Assembly: GCA_027335515.1 (NCBI GenBank)
Contig: DAHWHT010000117.1
Location: 1 to 16,651 of the forward strand
Reading direction: 5' to 3'
Source of the DNA: Clostridia bacterium
Lineage (GTDB): Bacteria > Bacillota_E > RBS10-35 > JAJYVN01
DNA length: 16,651 nt
In this document: in pieces, positions 5,502 through 16,651 of the stretch
How positions within the stretch are numbered: position 1 is the first letter of the stretch
How the letters are laid out: each line of letters starts with the position of its first letter
Translations under genes and position numbers: made by a program
Notes under the pieces: generated by a model
The model's database searches: none
What the model was told of the DNA's origin: nothing
What the model saw: the letters and a program-made list of their open reading frames with translations, nothing else

Positions 5502-6575
5502 CTAGCCGGCGATCGTGCCCGCCGACGGCCGCTGCGCTGCGCGGGAGACGGCGCCGTCGGGACCCGGGGCCTCTTCAAAGTAGCGGACCCGCTCCTTTTT
5601 GAACTCCCGGCTGCTCCACAGTGCCTGCCGCTGCGTGATACCGGTCCGGGCGGCGATGGCGTCGAGGGTGCGCACGCACTCCTCCCGCGTGCGCCCGTGG
5701 ACCATCGTGTAGACGTTGTAGGGAAAATCCGGATAGACCGGGCGCAGATAGCAATGGCTGACCGCGGCAAAGGCGGCCATCTGGGCGCCGACCTCCTCAA
5801 CGCGCTCGACGGGCACCTGCCAGACCCCCATGGCGTTGCTGACAAAACCCGCGTTCTGGTGGCGCAGCACGGCCGAAAAGCGGCGCATCTTGCCGCTGGC
5901 GGTCATGGCGGCACACCACTGGAAGACGCCGTCCAGGCCCACGCCCAACTCGGCCGCATACCCGTCGAACGGCCGCGAGACGTGCGGCAGGTCGCGCTGC
6001 AACACGCGGATGAAGGCGATGTCGCGCGGATCCAGCGGGGCGCGCTGGCCGCGGGTCACATCCGCCGCCCCGTAGATCCGCTGTCCCTCCTGCGCCTCCG
6101 GCGACCGCTCGCCGGCGACATCCAGACGCACCCCGATCTTGAAGAGCCGCAGCGTCGGCAGCACCCGCGTCTGCAGGGCGCCCGTGCGCGCACCCAGCGC
6201 CTGGGCGGCGGCGGCCACCTCCTGACCCGGCGGCACCGCGAGCGTAAACCACAGGTTGTATTCGTGCTGGCGGGCGTAGTTGTGGCTGACCCCGGGATGG
6301 TCGGAGATCTGCTGCGCGGCCGCCTCCAGCCGCTCGGGCGCAAACCGCATCGCGACCAGCGTCGATTGGTAGCCCAGGGCGCGGGTGTCGAAGATCGCGC
6401 TGATCTGCCGGATGACCCGCGCCTCGCGCAATCGGGCGATGCGGGCCAGCACCTCATCCTCGCCCAGGTCGACCGCCGCGCCCAGCGCGCGGTAGGGCAC
6501 GGCTTCCAGGGGAAAATCCTCCTGAATCCGATTGAGCAGGCGGCGGTCGGCCGCATCCATCTCGTGCAGTGCCAT
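5502..6575 (-). CDS. ahbAB: Fused siroheme decarboxylase AhbA-AhbB (NirDL-like), Lrp/AsnC-related
   Basis: This 357-residue protein contains two tandem AsnC/Lrp-like units. The N-half (about 1-155) has a winged-helix region, then HEYNLWFT (104-111) and LPTLRLFKIGVRLD (139-152). The C-half (about 180-335) has FSAVLRHQNAGF (233-244), SNAMGVWQVP (246-255), SHCYLRP (273-279), PYNVYTMVHGR (285-295) and a REFKKERVRYF tail. These blocks are those of AhbA/AhbB and NirD/L/G/H, which decarboxylate siroheme to didecarboxysiroheme on the way to heme b or heme d1. They are often misannotated as transcriptional regulators. Separate subunits are common; a fused NirDL form is known in some denitrifiers. Which half equals A and which B is tentative. 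The ATG has GGGGAGGG six bases upstream, and pgpA ends 20 bases before it, so it is probably the last gene of the suf-promoter operon. No AhbC/AhbD or nitrite reductase gene is in the window. Confidence 0.88.
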   Translation of the reverse strand: MALHEMDAADRRLLNRIQEDFPLEAVPYRALGAAVDLGEDEVLARIARLREARVIRQISAIFDTRALGYQSTLVAMRFAPERLEAAAQQISDHPGVSHNYARQHEYNLWFTLAVPPGQEVAAAAQALGARTGALQTRVLPTLRLFKIGVRLDVAGERSPEAQEGQRIYGAADVTRGQRAPLDPRDIAFIRVLQRDLPHVSRPFDGYAAELGVGLDGVFQWCAAMTASGKMRRFSAVLRHQNAGFVSNAMGVWQVPVERVEEVGAQMAAFAAVSHCYLRPVYPDFPYNVYTMVHGRTREECVRTLDAIAARTGITQRQALWSSREFKKERVRYFEEAPGPDGAVSRAAQRPSAGTIAG

Positions 6576-11166: not shown

Positions 11167-12513
11167 GTGAACCTGGTCGTGGTCGTTTCGGACACCTTCC
11201 GCTACGATTATTGTGGCTTCAACGGCAACCCGTGGATCCGGACCCCGGACCTCGACCGCTTCGCCGCCGAGGCGGTCGCCTTCGACCAAAACCACGTCTC
11301 CAGTTTTCCCACCATCCCGATGCGCACCGATTGGTTCACCGGCCGCTACGGCTTCCCGTCCCACGGCTGGCGGCCGCTGGACCCGAACGTACCGGTTCTG
11401 GCCCAACGCCTGGCACACGCCGGCTATCTGACCCAACTGATCATGGACAACCCCCACATGATGCGGGGCACCGCCCACTTCGACCGCGGCTTCGAAGGCC
11501 AGTGCTGGCTGCGCGGGCAAGAGGGAGACACCTACCTCACGCGCTTCAACCGCCTGCACGAAGCCATGCCGCCCGCCAAGACACGGCGCCAACCGCTGCG
11601 CCGTGGCCATACCCTTGCCGATATCCACCGCACGACCAACATCGACTGGGCCTGGGAGGAAGACCGCTTCGCCGCCCGCACCCTGCGTACGGCGAGCCGC
11701 TGGCTGGAAGAGAACTACCGCGCCGAGCAGTTCCTGCTGTGGGTCGACTGTTTCGATGTGCACGAGCCCTGGGATCCGCCCGACTACTGGGGGGAGCGCT
11801 ACGACCCCGACTACCGCGGCGCCCCCATGCTGCACCCCAACTACGGACCCGCCGACGCCTACACCCCGCAGGAGCTGGCCAACCTTCGCGCCCATTACGC
11901 CGGCGAGGTCAGCATGATCTCGCGCTGGTTCGGCCGCCTCCTCCAAAAGCTCGAGGACGTCGGCCTCGCCGACCGGACCGCGGTTGTATTCCTCTCCGAC
12001 CACGGCATGTTCCTGGGTGAGCACAACCGCACGGGCAAGAGCAACATCGCCGCCGAGGACAAGCGCCGCTGGCCGCTGTACCAGGAGGTCGCGCACATCC
12101 CCATGTTCCTGCGCCTGCCCGGGGTCGCGCCGCGGCGGGTGCCCGCCATCGTCCAGCCGCCCGACCTGCTGCCGACGCTGCTGGAGATCGCCGGGCAGAG
12201 CCCCCCCGAAGGAATCCACGGCCGCTCGCTGCTGCCGTTGCTGCGCGGTGAAACCGACCGCCACCGCGAGGTGGCCATCAGCGGCACCCACGGCCCCCGC
12301 GCGCTGCTGCGCGTCACCGATGGGCAATACACCTTCTATCCCGACGGCGAACTCGGCACACCGGAGCTGTATGACCTGCAGCGCGACCCGGGCGAGGCCA
12401 AGAACATCGCGAGCGAGCGGCCCGACGCCGCGGCGCGCCTGCAGGCCGCGATGGAAGCGTCTCTGGCGTCCTGGGCTCCCGACACGGCGTCCAAGCCCAT
12501 GGGCGGGGCCTGA
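11167..12513 (+). CDS. Sulfatase-fold hydrolase with threonine at the nucleophile position
   Basis: This 448-residue protein belongs to the alkaline phosphatase/sulfatase superfamily. The N-terminal metal site is DTFRYD (D9), and the C-terminal one is LSDHG (D278, H279) with K291 in a GK pair; H199 lies in VDCFDVHEPWDPP. The region that normally reads C/S-x-P-x-R followed by TGR is TIPMR (49-53) with TGR at 58-60, so threonine replaces the cysteine or serine that becomes formylglycine. It therefore may not be a classical sulfatase; phosphodiesterases and lipoteichoic acid synthases of this superfamily use a threonine nucleophile. There is no signal peptide: the first beta-strand begins at residue 2, implying a cytoplasmic enzyme. 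The GTG start has AGGGAG nine bases upstream. It is related to the two minus-strand sulfatase genes farther on. The substrate is unknown. Confidence 0.9.
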   Translation: MNLVVVVSDTFRYDYCGFNGNPWIRTPDLDRFAAEAVAFDQNHVSSFPTIPMRTDWFTGRYGFPSHGWRPLDPNVPVLAQRLAHAGYLTQLIMDNPHMMRGTAHFDRGFEGQCWLRGQEGDTYLTRFNRLHEAMPPAKTRRQPLRRGHTLADIHRTTNIDWAWEEDRFAARTLRTASRWLEENYRAEQFLLWVDCFDVHEPWDPPDYWGERYDPDYRGAPMLHPNYGPADAYTPQELANLRAHYAGEVSMISRWFGRLLQKLEDVGLADRTAVVFLSDHGMFLGEHNRTGKSNIAAEDKRRWPLYQEVAHIPMFLRLPGVAPRRVPAIVQPPDLLPTLLEIAGQSPPEGIHGRSLLPLLRGETDRHREVAISGTHGPRALLRVTDGQYTFYPDGELGTPELYDLQRDPGEAKNIASERPDAAARLQAAMEASLASWAPDTASKPMGGA

Positions 12514-12526
12514 AGCTCCCGCCCGT

Positions 12527-12563
12527 GGCGGGGTGGTGGGCCGGCCGGGTTCACCACCCCGCC
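12527..12563 (+). terminator. Strong hairpin after the plus-strand sulfatase gene
   Basis: A perfect 12-bp inverted repeat, GGCGGGGTGGTG (12527-12538) and CACCACCCCGCC (12552-12563), encloses a 13-base loop 14 bases past the stop codon. No T-tract follows, so it may be an imperfect terminator, an RNA-stabilising 3' structure or an intercistronic processing site. It separates the sulfatase gene from the trehalase-like gene. Confidence 0.55.
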
Positions 12564-12683
12564 AAGACCAACCCCGCGGGGCGCCCGGCGCCCAGGCCCG
12601 TGCAGCCCGCGGTGGAATGGATGCACCCGAGCATCACCGACGCCCTACAGGAAGCAGGCGGCCGGGGTGCTAGGCGCCGGAGC

Positions 12684-12690
12684 GGGGAGG
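12684..12690 (+). promoter_or_regulatory. Ribosome-binding site deciding the GTG start of the trehalase-like gene
   Basis: GGGGAGG ends eight bases before the GTG at 12699. The frame stays open upstream to 12525, but that extension covers the hairpin at 12527-12563 and is low-complexity Arg/Pro/Gly sequence, so the GTG is preferred. Confidence 0.7.
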
Positions 12691-12698
12691 ATTGGCGC

Positions 12699-14021
12699 GT
12701 GGAACCGCGAGCCGGAGCCCGCCCCGACCAAAAGGAAGTCCAGCAACCCGCGGCCTTGGACTGGGAAGCGTGGGCGGCCCTGGATACCCAGATCCGCGCC
12801 GGCTGGATGCAGGGGCGCACCGAGGCGTTGGAGCCGCAGATCCGCAAGGATCCGAAGGGCAACCTCTTGTTCTTGCCCCGCCCCTACATCACCCCGAACG
12901 GTTCACCACCCGCCGCTCCCGCCGCGACCAAAAACGATCTCTTCCGCGAGATGTATAACTGGGACACATACTTCATCAACCGCGGCCTGCTCGCGCATAA
13001 CCTCCCAGAGCCGGTGCGGGACCACATCCTCAACTACCTCTTCATGATCGACCGCTTCGGATACATGCCCAACGGCAACCGGGCACCGCTGTCGACGCGG
13101 TCGCAGATCCCGATCTTTCCGGACAGCATCTGCAGGTACTTCCAGGCCACGGGCGACCGCGAACTGCTGGCGGCGGCGTATCCCCGACTGCGCCGCGAGT
13201 TCTCCGAATACTGGCTGTCCCCGCCGCACCAGACGGCGATCGGCCTGAGCACGAACATCGACCCGGCGGACCCCCACCTGCCACCGGAGTTGTCCGCCGA
13301 GGCGGAAGCCCTGGACTGGACACCCATCTACGGGGGAGACATCCGGCGCTGCGTGCCGCTGATCACCAACTGCGCCCTCGTCTCGTACGCCGCGGCACTG
13401 GCGGACATGGCGCAGACGCTGGGGGACGCCGCCGGAGCGGAGGCGATGCGCCGGGAGGCCGGGGCGCGGGCCAAGCGCATCCGCGACCTCCAGTGGGACG
13501 GCGCCCGGGGCGTGTTTTGCGAGTACGACGCCGTGGCGGGCCGCCAACTCCCGTACGTATCCGACAGTGCCTTCTGGGCCCTGTGGGCCGGGGTCGCCAC
13601 GGCGGAACAGGCCGCCGAGTCCGTACGGTCGCTGCGGGCCCTGCGCGCACCGTGGGGGATCACCGCGACCGACCGCACCTACCCCGATCCGCACCGCCCC
13701 GGCCTGCTCGCCGCAGGTTCCCTGCAGTGGATGTATCCGGCCGGTTGGCCCCCATCGCAGTGGATCGCCTGCGAAGGGCTCGACCGCTACGGCTACCACG
13801 CGGACGCCGAACGGATCGCGGCCTCGTTCCTGCAGCTGGTGCTGGCCATCCACGGGCGCACCGGCCGGCTGTGGGAGAAATACAACGTCGTCGAAGGCAG
13901 CCTCGAACTGCCCAACGCCCGCTATGGCATCCTTCCCATGGCGGGCTGGACGGCGGCCTGTGTGGCGGTTCTCGGCCGCCGCCTGCGCAAAGGGGCGGCG
14001 ACGAACCAGGCTCGTTGGTGA
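12699..14021 (+). CDS. GH37 trehalase-like glycoside hydrolase with altered signatures
   Basis: This 440-residue protein has the (alpha/alpha)6 glycosidase pattern of GH37, whose known members hydrolyse alpha,alpha-trehalose to two glucoses. Matches to the family are LFREMYNWDTYF (81-92), MPNGNR (123-128) followed by STRSQ (132-136), QWMYPAGWPP (343-352) and LWEKYN (391-396). E393 fits the catalytic base of the EKYD motif; D206 (EALDW) is a possible catalytic acid, with a weak local match. Differences matter: the first signature normally reads PGGRF before x-E and here reads KNDLF, and the second is QWMYP where QWDxP is expected. The specificity may therefore differ from plain trehalose. No signal peptide is visible. 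It follows a sulfatase-fold gene by 185 bases and converges on another, 42 bases away, suggesting a shared substrate. A GH63-type enzyme is a less likely alternative. Confidence 0.85.
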   Translation: MEPRAGARPDQKEVQQPAALDWEAWAALDTQIRAGWMQGRTEALEPQIRKDPKGNLLFLPRPYITPNGSPPAAPAATKNDLFREMYNWDTYFINRGLLAHNLPEPVRDHILNYLFMIDRFGYMPNGNRAPLSTRSQIPIFPDSICRYFQATGDRELLAAAYPRLRREFSEYWLSPPHQTAIGLSTNIDPADPHLPPELSAEAEALDWTPIYGGDIRRCVPLITNCALVSYAAALADMAQTLGDAAGAEAMRREAGARAKRIRDLQWDGARGVFCEYDAVAGRQLPYVSDSAFWALWAGVATAEQAAESVRSLRALRAPWGITATDRTYPDPHRPGLLAAGSLQWMYPAGWPPSQWIACEGLDRYGYHADAERIAASFLQLVLAIHGRTGRLWEKYNVVEGSLELPNARYGILPMAGWTAACVAVLGRRLRKGAATNQARW

Positions 14022-14063: not shown

Positions 14064-15548
14064 TCAGAGGCCGAGGCGCTGGGCCTGTTCGGGAGGGGCG
14101 CCGACCTCAAGCAGCCAGCGGCGCAGGCCGTCTTCCAGCCGCCGCAGATCCCCGGGTCGCTCGCCGCTCAGATCGCGCGACTCCGATGCGTCCAGCAGCA
14201 CGCTGCCGCAGGGACCGCGCACCCAGTCCACCGGGTAGCGCGCCAGCGTCGGCGCCGGCCAGGGCTCCGGCGCACCCAGCCCGCGCGGCCGCATGAACTG
14301 AGGCGGTTCGGCGCCATACCAATACAGCGGGGTGTTGGATTCGGCCGGCGGCCAGCGGTGCAACACGAGTTCGCCGTCGGTGACCTGGATCGCCTCGCCG
14401 AACTTGGCGTAGCAGGCGAAGGGGCGGGGATCGCCCGGCGCGCCGCGCAGCAGCGGCAGCAGGCTCTTGCCGTGGCACTGCCAGCCCTGCGGCAGCGGCA
14501 CGCCCATGGCCTCCAGCACCGTCGGATAGAGGTCGACCGTCTGCGTCAGCGCGTCCAGGTGCGCGCCGGAACCGCGGGCCTCGGGGTGGTAGGCCAGCAG
14601 GGGCACATGCGCCAGATCGCGGTAGAGGTTGCTGTCGCCGTGCGAGGAGGACGGCTTGCCGATCATGCCGTGTTCCCCGAAGAGGTGGCCGTGGTCCGTC
14701 GTCACGAGCAGCACGGTGTCCTCCATGCGCCCCAGCCGCTCCAGGGTATCCACCACGCGGCCGAGCCAGGCATCGACCAACCCCACCTCACCGGCATAGA
14801 GCCGGCGGATGGAAGCGAGTTCGGCCGGGGTATAGCGGTCGGCGCGGCCGTAGATCGGCCATGCCACCGCCGTCGGGTCGTCCGGCGCGGGCGCCCCGGC
14901 GCGCTGCCGCCACGCCGGGGGCGGATCGAACGGCTCGTGCGGATCGAAGCAGTCGACCAGGAGGAAAAACGGCCGCGGCGCCGGACCGGATGCGTTCTCG
15001 TCCAGCCAGTGGGCGGCCGCGCCCAGGGTCTGCGCCGCGAAGGTGTCCTCCTCGCGCCGCCATTCCAGGCCCTGACGCCAGCGGACCGTGTTGCGCCAAT
15101 ACCGCTCCCAGCGTCGGTGCAGCTTGCGCTCCCGCTCCTGCGGCCAGGGGACCTCCACCCCCCGAACCGCCCAGCGGTCGTCCTCCTGGCCGCGCAGGAA
15201 CTCCCAGCCGTCGAATCCGAAGTAGTAGTTGCCCGAGCCGGGCTGGAACAGGTGGTAGTGGTCGGTGATCAGCGCGGTCTGCACCCCGGCCGCCGACAGC
15301 ACCGACGGCAGGTCGCGGTCGCCGGCCTGCAGCTGCCCCCAGCCGCGCCAGGGAAACTCGTAGCGCCCCGTCCACAGGTCGCGCCGCGCCGGCATGCACG
15401 GGTAAGACCCGAGGAAGTAGCGGTCGAAGGTCACCCCCAACCGCGCCAAACGGTCAAAGGTCGGGGTGGGCAGCGGCGCGGCCGCACCGACGTACGGGGT
15501 GAGGTGATCGCGCCGCAGGGTGTCGATCAGGACCAGGACGACGTTCAA
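14064..15548 (-). CDS. Cys-type sulfatase (CMPAR formylglycine motif)
   Basis: This 494-residue sulfatase has the complete Cys-type active-site motif CMPAR (51-55) followed by TGR (60-62), as needed for conversion of C51 to formylglycine. Metal ligands are expected at D9 (IDTLRRD), D285 and H286 (TTDHG), with K298 and H204 (VDCFDPHEPFDPP) near the substrate. No signal peptide is visible, so it is probably cytoplasmic. I chose TTG at 15548: GAAGGGGG lies seven bases upstream, and the resulting MNVV start parallels MNLV of the plus-strand paralogue. GTG at 15554 is the alternative, but its ribosome-binding site is only one base away. The upstream sulfatase stop codon overlaps this ribosome-binding site, so the two are co-transcribed. 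No maturase (FGE or anSME) gene is in the window. The sulfated substrate is unknown; phosphonate or phosphate esters are possible for this family. Confidence 0.92.
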   Translation of the reverse strand: MNVVLVLIDTLRRDHLTPYVGAAAPLPTPTFDRLARLGVTFDRYFLGSYPCMPARRDLWTGRYEFPWRGWGQLQAGDRDLPSVLSAAGVQTALITDHYHLFQPGSGNYYFGFDGWEFLRGQEDDRWAVRGVEVPWPQERERKLHRRWERYWRNTVRWRQGLEWRREEDTFAAQTLGAAAHWLDENASGPAPRPFFLLVDCFDPHEPFDPPPAWRQRAGAPAPDDPTAVAWPIYGRADRYTPAELASIRRLYAGEVGLVDAWLGRVVDTLERLGRMEDTVLLVTTDHGHLFGEHGMIGKPSSSHGDSNLYRDLAHVPLLAYHPEARGSGAHLDALTQTVDLYPTVLEAMGVPLPQGWQCHGKSLLPLLRGAPGDPRPFACYAKFGEAIQVTDGELVLHRWPPAESNTPLYWYGAEPPQFMRPRGLGAPEPWPAPTLARYPVDWVRGPCGSVLLDASESRDLSGERPGDLRRLEDGLRRWLLEVGAPPEQAQRLGL

Positions 15549-15555
15549 CGCCACG

Positions 15556-15563
15556 CCCCCTTC
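15556..15563 (-). promoter_or_regulatory. Ribosome-binding site overlapping an upstream stop and supporting a TTG start
   Basis: GAAGGGGG on the minus strand lies seven bases before TTG at 15548. It shares its first two bases with the TGA stop (15562-15564) of the preceding sulfatase gene, which suggests translational coupling. Confidence 0.6.
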
Positions 15564-16651
15564 AAACCAGGTTGCTGCCCTCCCAGCGCTCACCGGCCGC
15601 GGCACGCTGGCGCCGGATCTCGCGCAGGCCGCCCGGTGTGGCGGCAAACCCTCGGCCCGGCCGGTGGTTGTAGTGGGCCGGCAGCGGCTCCCCGAGCAGA
15701 GCCTCGAGTTGACCAAGCTTGGCCGCCACGATCTGCGGCTGGTCGGCCGCGATGTTGCGCTCCTCGGCCGGATCCGCCTCCAGGTCGTAGAGACGCTTTT
15801 CCACCGTCGGGTCCTGGGTGTGTACGATCAAGTTGTGGCGGCGGTCCCGTACCGAGGCCCAGGCCTCCCAGCCGATGACGATGTGGTCGCGCGCCGGCTG
15901 CGGCGTGCGCCCGATCGGCCAGACGTCCCTCCCATCCAGCGGCCGGTGGGAGACGTCCAGCAGGCCGAGCAGGGTCGGCACGAGGTCGTGGTTTTGCACG
16001 AAGCCCCCCACGTCCAGGCGGCCGCGGCGTTCGGGGTGGCGGACCATCCAGTTGATGTGCGTGTTGTACGGATACGGGCGGGCACCGGACTTGCCGAACT
16101 GGCCCTTGTCCCAGAGCTCGGTGCCGTGGTCGGACAGCACCACGACGACGCTGTCGCGCAGGGCGCCCGCCTTCTCGATCTGGTCGAAAAAGCGGCCGAA
16201 CCGCTCATCGGCGAAGGTGACATACCCCTGATACAGGGCCTTGGTCCGCGCAATATCGGCGGGGTCCGGCTCCGGACGGTTCGCGCCGCGGTTGAGCATC
16301 TGCGGCACGATGTGGTCGCGTCGGCCTTCCCCGGGGTGGTAGGCGTCGGCAAACCGCGTGGGCGGGTCCCAGAACTCATGCGGCGTGAAGGAGTCCACCC
16401 ACAGGAAGTAGGGGCTGTTCCCCTGGTTTCCTTCCACCCACTCTGCGGCGGAATCCAGCACCCGCGCCGCGAAGTAGTCCTCGTCGCGGCTGCGGTCGCG
16501 CGTTTGATAGAGGTAGGACGCCGGGCCAAGCCTGCGGCCGGCAAAGGCGGACGGGTCACGCAGCGAATCGGCGGCCAGGACGCGCGTATCCCCCTCCTGG
16601 CCGCGAATGAAGTCCCAGGAGACAAACCCCCGCGTGAAGTTCATCGTCGGC
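15562..16651 (-). CDS. Sulfatase-fold hydrolase, N-terminus cut by the window edge
   Basis: The frame is open to the right edge, so the gene starts outside the window; comparison with the downstream paralogue suggests about 100-110 residues are missing. These include the N-terminal metal site and the CxPxR region, so Cys, Ser or Thr type cannot be decided. What is present: FIRGQEGDT, the DEDYFAA block, VDSFTPHEFWDPP with its histidine, LSDHG with a following GK (metal and substrate residues), and a C-terminal LYDLEADPAEERN block typical of sulfatases. The internal ATG at 16644 is not a plausible start because it falls within the fold. It is co-directional with the next sulfatase, 13 bases apart, and is clearly a paralogue of it and of the plus-strand gene. 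Confidence 0.88.
   Translation of the reverse strand, partial: PTMNFTRGFVSWDFIRGQEGDTRVLAADSLRDPSAFAGRRLGPASYLYQTRDRSRDEDYFAARVLDSAAEWVEGNQGNSPYFLWVDSFTPHEFWDPPTRFADAYHPGEGRRDHIVPQMLNRGANRPEPDPADIARTKALYQGYVTFADERFGRFFDQIEKAGALRDSVVVVLSDHGTELWDKGQFGKSGARPYPYNTHINWMVRHPERRGRLDVGGFVQNHDLVPTLLGLLDVSHRPLDGRDVWPIGRTPQPARDHIVIGWEAWASVRDRRHNLIVHTQDPTVEKRLYDLEADPAEERNIAADQPQIVAAKLGQLEALLGEPLPAHYNHRPGRGFAATPGGLREIRRQRAAAGERWEGSNLV

Follow-up and report, generated by a model that had tools for sequence, protein, structure and literature searches.

A conserved threonine at the formylglycine position of sulfatase-fold proteins, encoded near a cysteine-type paralogue in a Clostridia bacterium

Introduction

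What does a sulfatase-fold protein do with a threonine at the position from which other sulfatases form formylglycine? The question is raised by a 16,651-nucleotide stretch of DNA from a Clostridia bacterium (positions 1 to 16,651 of contig DAHWHT010000117.1, assembly GCA_027335515.1; hereafter the window), in which the protein studied here, the Thr protein, reads TIPMR where a paralogue encoded nearby, the Cys neighbour, reads CMPAR. The formylglycine-generating enzyme (FGE) requires a motif of the CxPxR type. This motif is also described in PMC5066984 (cited here, like PMC5870055 and PMC5488252, from excerpts of the text), according to which formylglycine has never been shown to arise from threonine and oxidation of threonine would give a ketone instead; an earlier sequence-only reading of the window, which considered threonine unusable by the known formylglycine-forming routes, is borne out on this point.

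In the reading that we favour, with about even confidence, the gene encodes an active one-metal hydrolase, probably located in the cytoplasm, from the sulfatase/phosphonate monoester hydrolase (PMH) branch of the alkaline phosphatase superfamily, and this enzyme would use unmodified T49 as its nucleophile. Threonine would be the original state of the superclade to which both paralogues belong, and the cysteine of the neighbour would be secondary.

Results

The exchange of TIPMR for CMPAR was confirmed by in-frame translation and by BLASTP, in which the Thr protein and the Cys neighbour share 159 of 422 aligned residues. The stretch TIPMRTDWFTGR is aligned to CMPARRDLWTGR gap-free, and therefore the TGR behind the motif lies at the same distance in both proteins, as had been proposed. 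The Thr protein matches the PF00884 sulfatase family at 111 bits (cut-off 25), together with a C-terminal SGSH_C domain, and gives a weak Pfam match to PF01663 (30 bits). It reaches the cut-off of no NCBIfam model, the best being the PRK13759 arylsulfatase profile (139 of 481 bits); the LtaS profile stays below its cut-off of 970 with 21.5 bits.

Homologues of the Thr protein were collected at E<=1e-20 (1888 proteins), and the best 120, the query among them, were listed and aligned (46-77% identity, query apart). T49 is a threonine in all 120 and belongs to the 35 positions that show no variation across this set. All 120 have the pattern T-x-P-x-R and none the [CS]-x-P-x-R of formylglycine sulfatases (S1), so that alignment of close homologues, which the sequence-only reading had suggested, supports conservation of the threonine. 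No column conserved in at least 112 of the 120 listed homologues holds a cysteine; a nearby alternative cysteine as the true nucleophile, the finding that would have spoken against the earlier proposal, was rejected on these grounds. In comparison with the nearest locus, the ratio of non-synonymous to synonymous substitution rates (dN/dS) is about 0.14, indicative of purifying selection. A sequencing error or pseudogene was likewise rejected, given threonine in all listed homologues, an open frame and this dN/dS value: the T49 gene is not a damaged sulfatase paralogue. For the Cys neighbour (2082 homologues at E<=1e-10), the nucleophile column of the best 120 holds 119 cysteines and one gap. 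For a third sulfatase gene at the window's edge (240 homologues found, 120 listed) it holds 117 threonines (86 TxPxR, 30 TxQxR and one TxExR) and three gaps. Named sources include Gemmatimonadota and Armatimonadetes among the listed homologues of the Thr protein, and Chloroflexota, Planctomycetota and Lentisphaerae among those of the third gene.

The remainder of the active site is retained. Residues D9, R53, H97, H199, D278, H279 and K291 of the Thr protein are the commonest at their columns in both 120-row sets, Thr and Cys (D9 in 119 and 118 rows, respectively, the others in 119-120 of 120). D9, D278 and H279 conform to the metal-ligand pattern Asp...Asp-[Asn/His] of formylglycine sulfatases, in agreement with the earlier statement that the metal-site aspartates and histidines remain. 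In PMC5870055, on choline sulfatase, and in PMC5488252, residues of the Asp...Asp-His set are metal ligands and a His-Lys pair stabilises the leaving group. T10 occupies a position where bulk sulfatases mostly carry Gln or Asp. An AlphaFold2 model, obtained as the sequence-only reading had advised, has a mean pLDDT of 95 and the sulfatase/PMH fold, with T49 predicted to start the nucleophile helix; sulfatases and PMHs are among the best 50 matches listed for this model by Foldseek and VIA-align. The protein has no N-terminal extension and begins in the first core beta strand (E2-8 of the model), and in 116 of the 120 listed homologues the nucleophile comes no later than residue 60, and therefore the enzyme is probably cytoplasmic.

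In order to define what the Thr protein shares with its relatives, marks were counted on a 117-row alignment, the same rows on which the superclade is defined. D94, R116, P48 and W68 are present in 57/57 Thr rows of the superclade and in 19/19 rows of the neighbour's Cys clade, as are R53, H199, D278, H279 and K291; H97 is present in 55/57 and 19/19, respectively. The column of D94 holds a lysine in 29 of 34 bulk Cys sulfatase rows, and this conserved Lys of K-x-H is absent from the Thr protein, which bears the full set of superclade marks (D94-x-x-H97, R116, P48 and W68). Among the superclade Thr rows, the +2 proline of TxPxR is kept in 46/57 and the arginine in 57/57. We further typed 48 domains in loci fetched from genome samples, a part of them from G001 and G006-G008, genomes already present in the earlier sets: 32 have the full signature (30 Thr, two Cys) and 16 do not (seven Thr, eight Cys, one gap). 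The Thr-type proteins form a large, widespread and apparently unstudied branch, usually labelled sulfatase or arylsulfatase.

A separate NPP-like Thr group of six rows (L064, L082 and L112 from G001, L128 and L134 from G002, and L047 from G005) branches apart from the superclade. Its motif is TxPxY/H (TxAxY in one row), the +4 arginine is lost and an Asp occupies the K291 column.

The direction of the exchange was read from trees. FastTree was run on all 117 rows; a more careful tree was built from 89 of these with the nucleophile column blanked, after exclusion of 28 rows (15 long, duplicate or truncated, 13 thinned), which included the Cys row L113 as well as L143, a Thr row. An LtaS-rooted tree was obtained by thinning 15 further rows and adding two LtaS-type rows (L209 and L212). 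In the careful tree the superclade is supported at 100/100, and the neighbour's Cys clade, also at 100/100, is nested inside it. This tree requires two Thr/Cys changes, and neither state is a single clade in any of 200 bootstrap trees. Forcing all Cys rows into one clade cost 52.5 log units and was rejected by the approximately unbiased test (p-AU 3.26e-05). The LtaS-rooted tree recovers the nesting, with threonine as the most parsimonious ancestral state. These trees indicate that the neighbour's cysteine was inherited separately from that of the bulk sulfatases, and suggest that threonine is probably the rule in the superclade and the neighbour's cysteine secondary. The sequence-only reading had derived the Thr gene from a sulfatase scaffold; as to fold and active site this stands, whereas descent from a Cys sulfatase like the neighbour is probably wrong, since the Cys clade is nested in the Thr superclade and a single clade of all Cys rows is rejected, so that the polarity assumed there is probably inverted.

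Matches to the Thr protein are unevenly distributed: 42 of 64 genomes of the G006 group have one at E<=1e-60, and three of 299 genomes of the G001 group at E<=1e-40 (G001, G261 and G367), the copies in G261 and G367 being Cys-type with 30% identity. In the corresponding Bacillota-group loci (L184 and L185), this Cys-type protein (PCMPAR) is the only superclade member among the matches found. G001 and G002, the hosts of loci L001 and L002, are sulfatase-rich Bacillota metagenome-assembled genomes (MAGs) of about 4.0 and 3.7 Mb, with 57 and 80 PF00884 matches. With pieces of <200 residues dropped and a few tiny fragments not retrieved, G001 has 52 unique sulfatase-like domains (38 Cys, 13 Thr, one without the region) and G002 has 77 (63 Cys, 13 Thr, one without the region). 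The +2 position of the Cys domains of both genomes (n=101) is Pro in 97, Ala in three and Ser in one; in the Thr domains, NPP-like ones set aside (n=21), it is Pro in 15, Gln in four, Cys in one and Asp in one. Because FGE needs the motif, an unmodified threonine is consistent with the loss of the +2 proline seen in certain Thr branches.

The formylglycine machinery was also sought. A protein with the FGE domain (PF03781) was found in six of eight genomes tested and an anSME over cut-off in seven of eight; G001 and G002 have both. A PF03781 match is by itself no proof of FGE, because the domain was also matched in four of 14 control genomes; TIGR03942 was matched in 12 of these 14, over its cut-off in two. 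Three FGE candidates are below every NCBIfam cut-off. The G001 candidate, the one compared with solved structures, scores 415 bits to solved formylglycine-generating enzymes and at most 104 to CalU17, EgtB, SenA and similar proteins.

Table 1 Features of the Thr gene and its cluster in the window.
Feature	Position	Strand	Basis or remark
Thr-type sulfatase-fold enzyme, 448 aa, GTG start	11167..12513	+	translation, profile searches, model
D9, predicted metal ligand	11191..11193	+	aligned to N-terminal metal Asp of sulfatases/PMHs; role from PMC5870055 (excerpt)
TIPMR motif, residues 49-53; T49 putative nucleophile, R53 conserved motif arginine	11311..11325	+	
D94-N-P-H97, superclade signature D-x-x-H	11446..11457	+	bulk formylglycine sulfatases mostly K-x-H
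RGQE (R116-E119), second superclade signature	11512..11523	+	alignment
H199, predicted leaving-group acid	11761..11763	+	aligned to His of sulfatase His-Lys pair; role from PMC5870055 (excerpt)
D278-H279, predicted metal ligands	11998..12003	+	alignment; role from PMC5870055 (excerpt)
K291, predicted to assist H199 in stabilising the leaving group	12037..12039	+	alignment; role from PMC5870055 (excerpt)
Trehalase/MGH1-like glycoside hydrolase between Thr and Cys genes	12525..14021	+	order kept in L001
Cys-type superclade member, 497 aa, natural nucleophile counterpart	14064..15557	-	profiles, homologues, tree
CMPAR motif of Cys neighbour, fits CxPxR	15384..15398	-	alignment
Third superclade member, N-terminus with nucleophile beyond window edge	15562..16650	-	profiles; syntenic L001

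The Bacillota MAG locus L001 is syntenic with the window: in both, SufC is followed by the Thr gene, the trehalase-like gene, the Cys gene and the third sulfatase. The complete third gene of L001 (12467-13885) is Thr-type (PTIPFR) and is 92% identical to that of the window across the shared part, from which we infer that the window's copy is Thr-type as well. Relatives of the third gene include a TxQxR branch without the +2 proline. In L002 (about 1-16700), orthologues of both the Cys and the Thr gene lie in one cluster with a further Thr paralogue (PTIPCR) and three Cys sulfatases of the ordinary type. Elsewhere in the window, near SUF iron-sulfur genes, a single protein (5502-6575, minus strand) consists of two tandem siroheme-decarboxylase-like halves, with two stretches each of the NirDL-like helix-turn-helix and AsnC_trans_reg2 (Pfam).

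In order to survey the wider context of the Thr gene, open reading frames around it were clustered in 27 loci. Pfam scans covered 32 proteins from the neighbourhoods in relatives and another 10 from the window. The neighbourhoods encode Gfo/Idh oxidoreductases (L003, L006), an ABC permease (L008), GH32 (L195 and L197, with PL11 also in L195), enolase-family, SMP-30, PhyH and nucleoside transporter genes (L199) and further sulfatases (L002). Halogenase-like, aminotransferase and epimerase genes, among them a DUF1731 epimerase, occur in several of L190-L197; other types are CoA-transferase, aquaporin-like and peptidase, and CobT-like, MFS and restriction-modification neighbours point away from carbohydrate catabolism. 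Neighbour groups are common within a lineage (e.g. L190, L191, L194-L197); between lineages, recurrence is limited to a Gfo/Idh homologue (in L003 and L006) and to a group of ABC ATPases (in L001 and L003), and no neighbour recurs in most lineages among the 27 loci. The neighbours are often, not always, of the carbohydrate-catabolism type, and the context is only vaguely carbohydrate-related; a small imported anionic sugar ester would be no more than a fair guess at the substrate.

Discussion

The conservation of T49, the predicted fold, the retention of the site, membership of the superclade and purifying selection are the observations on which we base our view of the Thr protein as a hydrolase with an unmodified nucleophile. 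The nucleophile role of T49, the metal, the order of steps and the substrate preference are proposals, as follows. A metal held by D9, D278 and H279 would, together with R53, activate the T49 hydroxyl, and the resulting alkoxide would attack the phosphorus (or sulfur) of a small soluble ester, while the H199-K291 pair would protonate the leaving group. Water, with H97 as the base, would then hydrolyse the covalent phospho-Thr (or sulfo-Thr) intermediate, a step that would replace the hemiacetal elimination used by formylglycine enzymes. The natural substrate is, in our judgement, more likely to be a phosphate mono- or diester or a phosphonate than a sulfate ester.

Several observations weigh against this view or parts of it. 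Forcing the superclade's 44 Thr rows together, with Cys as sister to all, cost 11.4 log units and was rejected only at p-AU 0.033, and the group was named after the tree had been seen. In the LtaS-rooted tree the forks around the nesting are partly supported below 95, and the root is weak, with long outgroup branches (2.4 and 2.8). In the FastTree phylogeny, the long Cys row L113 grouped with the Thr rows of NPP-like type, and three changes of the Thr label were required. Two of the 32 domains with the full signature are Cys-type (from G261 and G367), and seven Thr-type domains do not have it. Motif decay is limited to other Thr branches, the window's own clade keeping the +2 proline in 120/120 listed homologues. 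No phospho- or phosphonate-specific gene was seen around the Thr gene, where neighbourhoods vary by lineage. Moreover, H97 corresponds to the arylsulfatase His adjoining the nucleophile, put forward in PMC5488252 as the base that cleaves the hemiacetal, and its retention, where PMHs have Thr or Asp, rather favours sulfatase chemistry. Finally, in the same text five arylsulfatases and four PMHs in which Ser replaces formylglycine stay measurably active on sulfate and phosphate esters, the arylsulfatase variants still cleaving sulfate esters; the loss is about 10-fold on average whatever the substrate class, the extremes being a slight increase and a 10^3-10^4-fold drop. A hydroxyl nucleophile alone therefore neither excludes a sulfatase nor proves a phosphoesterase.

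The protein could accordingly still be a sulfatase, in which the Thr alkoxide attacks sulfur and sulfo-Thr is hydrolysed by H97-activated water with no formylglycine involved, an alternative that we regard as rather unlikely. Besides the average one tenth of activity left in the Ser variants of PMC5488252 and the H97 found in most superclade Thr rows, it draws on the occurrence of Thr genes among Cys-type sulfatases in sulfatase-rich G001 and G002 and on the Cys paralogue in the window, 38% identical with the same site. However, the advantage of formylglycine is regeneration by elimination, and an FGE-holding lineage such as that of G001 would have little reason to use threonine on sulfate esters; the sulfatase-typical Lys is also replaced by Asp, though equally so in the neighbour's Cys clade. 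An improbable alternative is a phosphotransferase or mutase, in which phospho-Thr would be passed to a second hydroxyl by a logic like that of LtaS and EptA or of phosphopentomutase. The related Thr-nucleophile families LtaS, EptA and DeoB do so, but the closest profiles and folds of the Thr protein are hydrolases, it has no membrane anchor or N-terminal extension, and the two LtaS-type rows fall outside all other tree rows, on long branches. Threonine is moreover common in the Pfam seed of PF00884 (30 of 59 members in PMC5066984), which suits this alternative.

Loss of the canonical nucleophile residue might instead mark a sulfatase-fold protein that has lost catalysis and is retained for a binding or regulatory role. 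We consider this very improbable, as the remaining catalytic and metal residues vary little or not at all, the threonine is invariant in the listed set, the gene is under purifying selection and many Thr-type paralogues occur per genome (in G001 and G002, 13 each). Hardly credible, in our view, is conversion of the threonine by an unknown maturase into a keto residue, a methyl-ketone analogue of formylglycine with similar action. PMC5066984 mentions the ketone as product of threonine oxidation, and TxPxR is kept in many members (Pro in 46/57 and Arg in 57/57, as above), but no such enzyme is known, that text has formylglycine from threonine as never shown, the +2 proline is lost in some Thr branches, so that the motif is not maintained, and a ketone hydrate would be a poorer nucleophile.

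With slightly less than even confidence, we propose that the superclade is a large family of soluble one-metal hydrolases, spread over several phyla and built on ordinary threonine in a near-complete sulfatase site, and that the neighbour's branch re-acquired cysteine in a full CxPxR, which would be a second, independent origin of a formylglycine-capable nucleophile in an FGE-holding lineage. If true, the Thr and Cys paralogues, which lie about 1.5 kb from each other, amount to a nucleophile swap carried out by nature, and the second origin bears on how easily FGE clients are recruited. In the superclade, evolution has produced the same active site in a Thr and a Cys version, both present in the window's cluster, and the purpose of formylglycine (sulfate versus phosphate, elimination versus hydrolysis of an intermediate) becomes addressable with native enzymes rather than impaired mutants. 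Many entries named sulfatase or arylsulfatase cannot carry formylglycine by known routes, and therefore sulfatase counts in environmental genomes may be inflated (13/52 domains of G001 and 13/77 of G002 are Thr-type).

Among known systems, the formylglycine (type I, S1) arylsulfatases of PF00884 resemble the Thr enzyme in fold, SGSH_C-like C-terminal domain, metal Asp/Asp-His, motif arginine, His-Lys leaving-group pair and the His near the nucleophile; they differ in having Cys or Ser in place of the threonine and K-x-H in place of D-x-x-H, and the RGxE signature is extra here. PMHs and dimeric arylsulfatases (RlPMH, BcPMH, SpAS1, SpPMH and ArPMH) form formylglycine from Cys where the Thr enzyme has T49. 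In PMC5488252, PMHs carry Tyr in place of the Lys and Thr or Asp at the His position, where the Thr enzyme has D94-x-x-H97, and it does not fit the PMH pattern. LtaS and LtaS-like PF00884 proteins (L209 and L212) share the threonine at the nucleophile position, for which a nucleophile role is proposed here. LtaS itself is a membrane-anchored transferase with a Thr nucleophile and an N-terminal membrane domain; this domain is absent from the Thr protein, the open reading frame of which starts in the first core strand, and the motif differs. Straightforward LtaS membership was rejected, given 21.5 bits against the cut-off of 970 (and against 139 for the PRK13759 arylsulfatase profile) and the position of the LtaS rows outside in the tree.

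Presumably TxNxE marks LtaS-like proteins, and L212 is in line with this. Threonine in PF00884 is already in print for TxNxE proteins, a group that stands beside the Thr seed members in PMC5066984 and of which none is characterised according to that excerpt. No paper on TxPxR proteins was found among those listed by searches of the open-access PMC library, subscription papers being outside the search. NPP and PafA-type phosphatases are two-metal enzymes with a Thr nucleophile. They share the superfamily fold and the threonine with the Thr clade, and the match to PF01663 is weak; straightforward NPP membership seems unlikely on profiles and tree. The Thr clade differs from these phosphatases in keeping R53, H199 and K291, the one-metal set of sulfatases.
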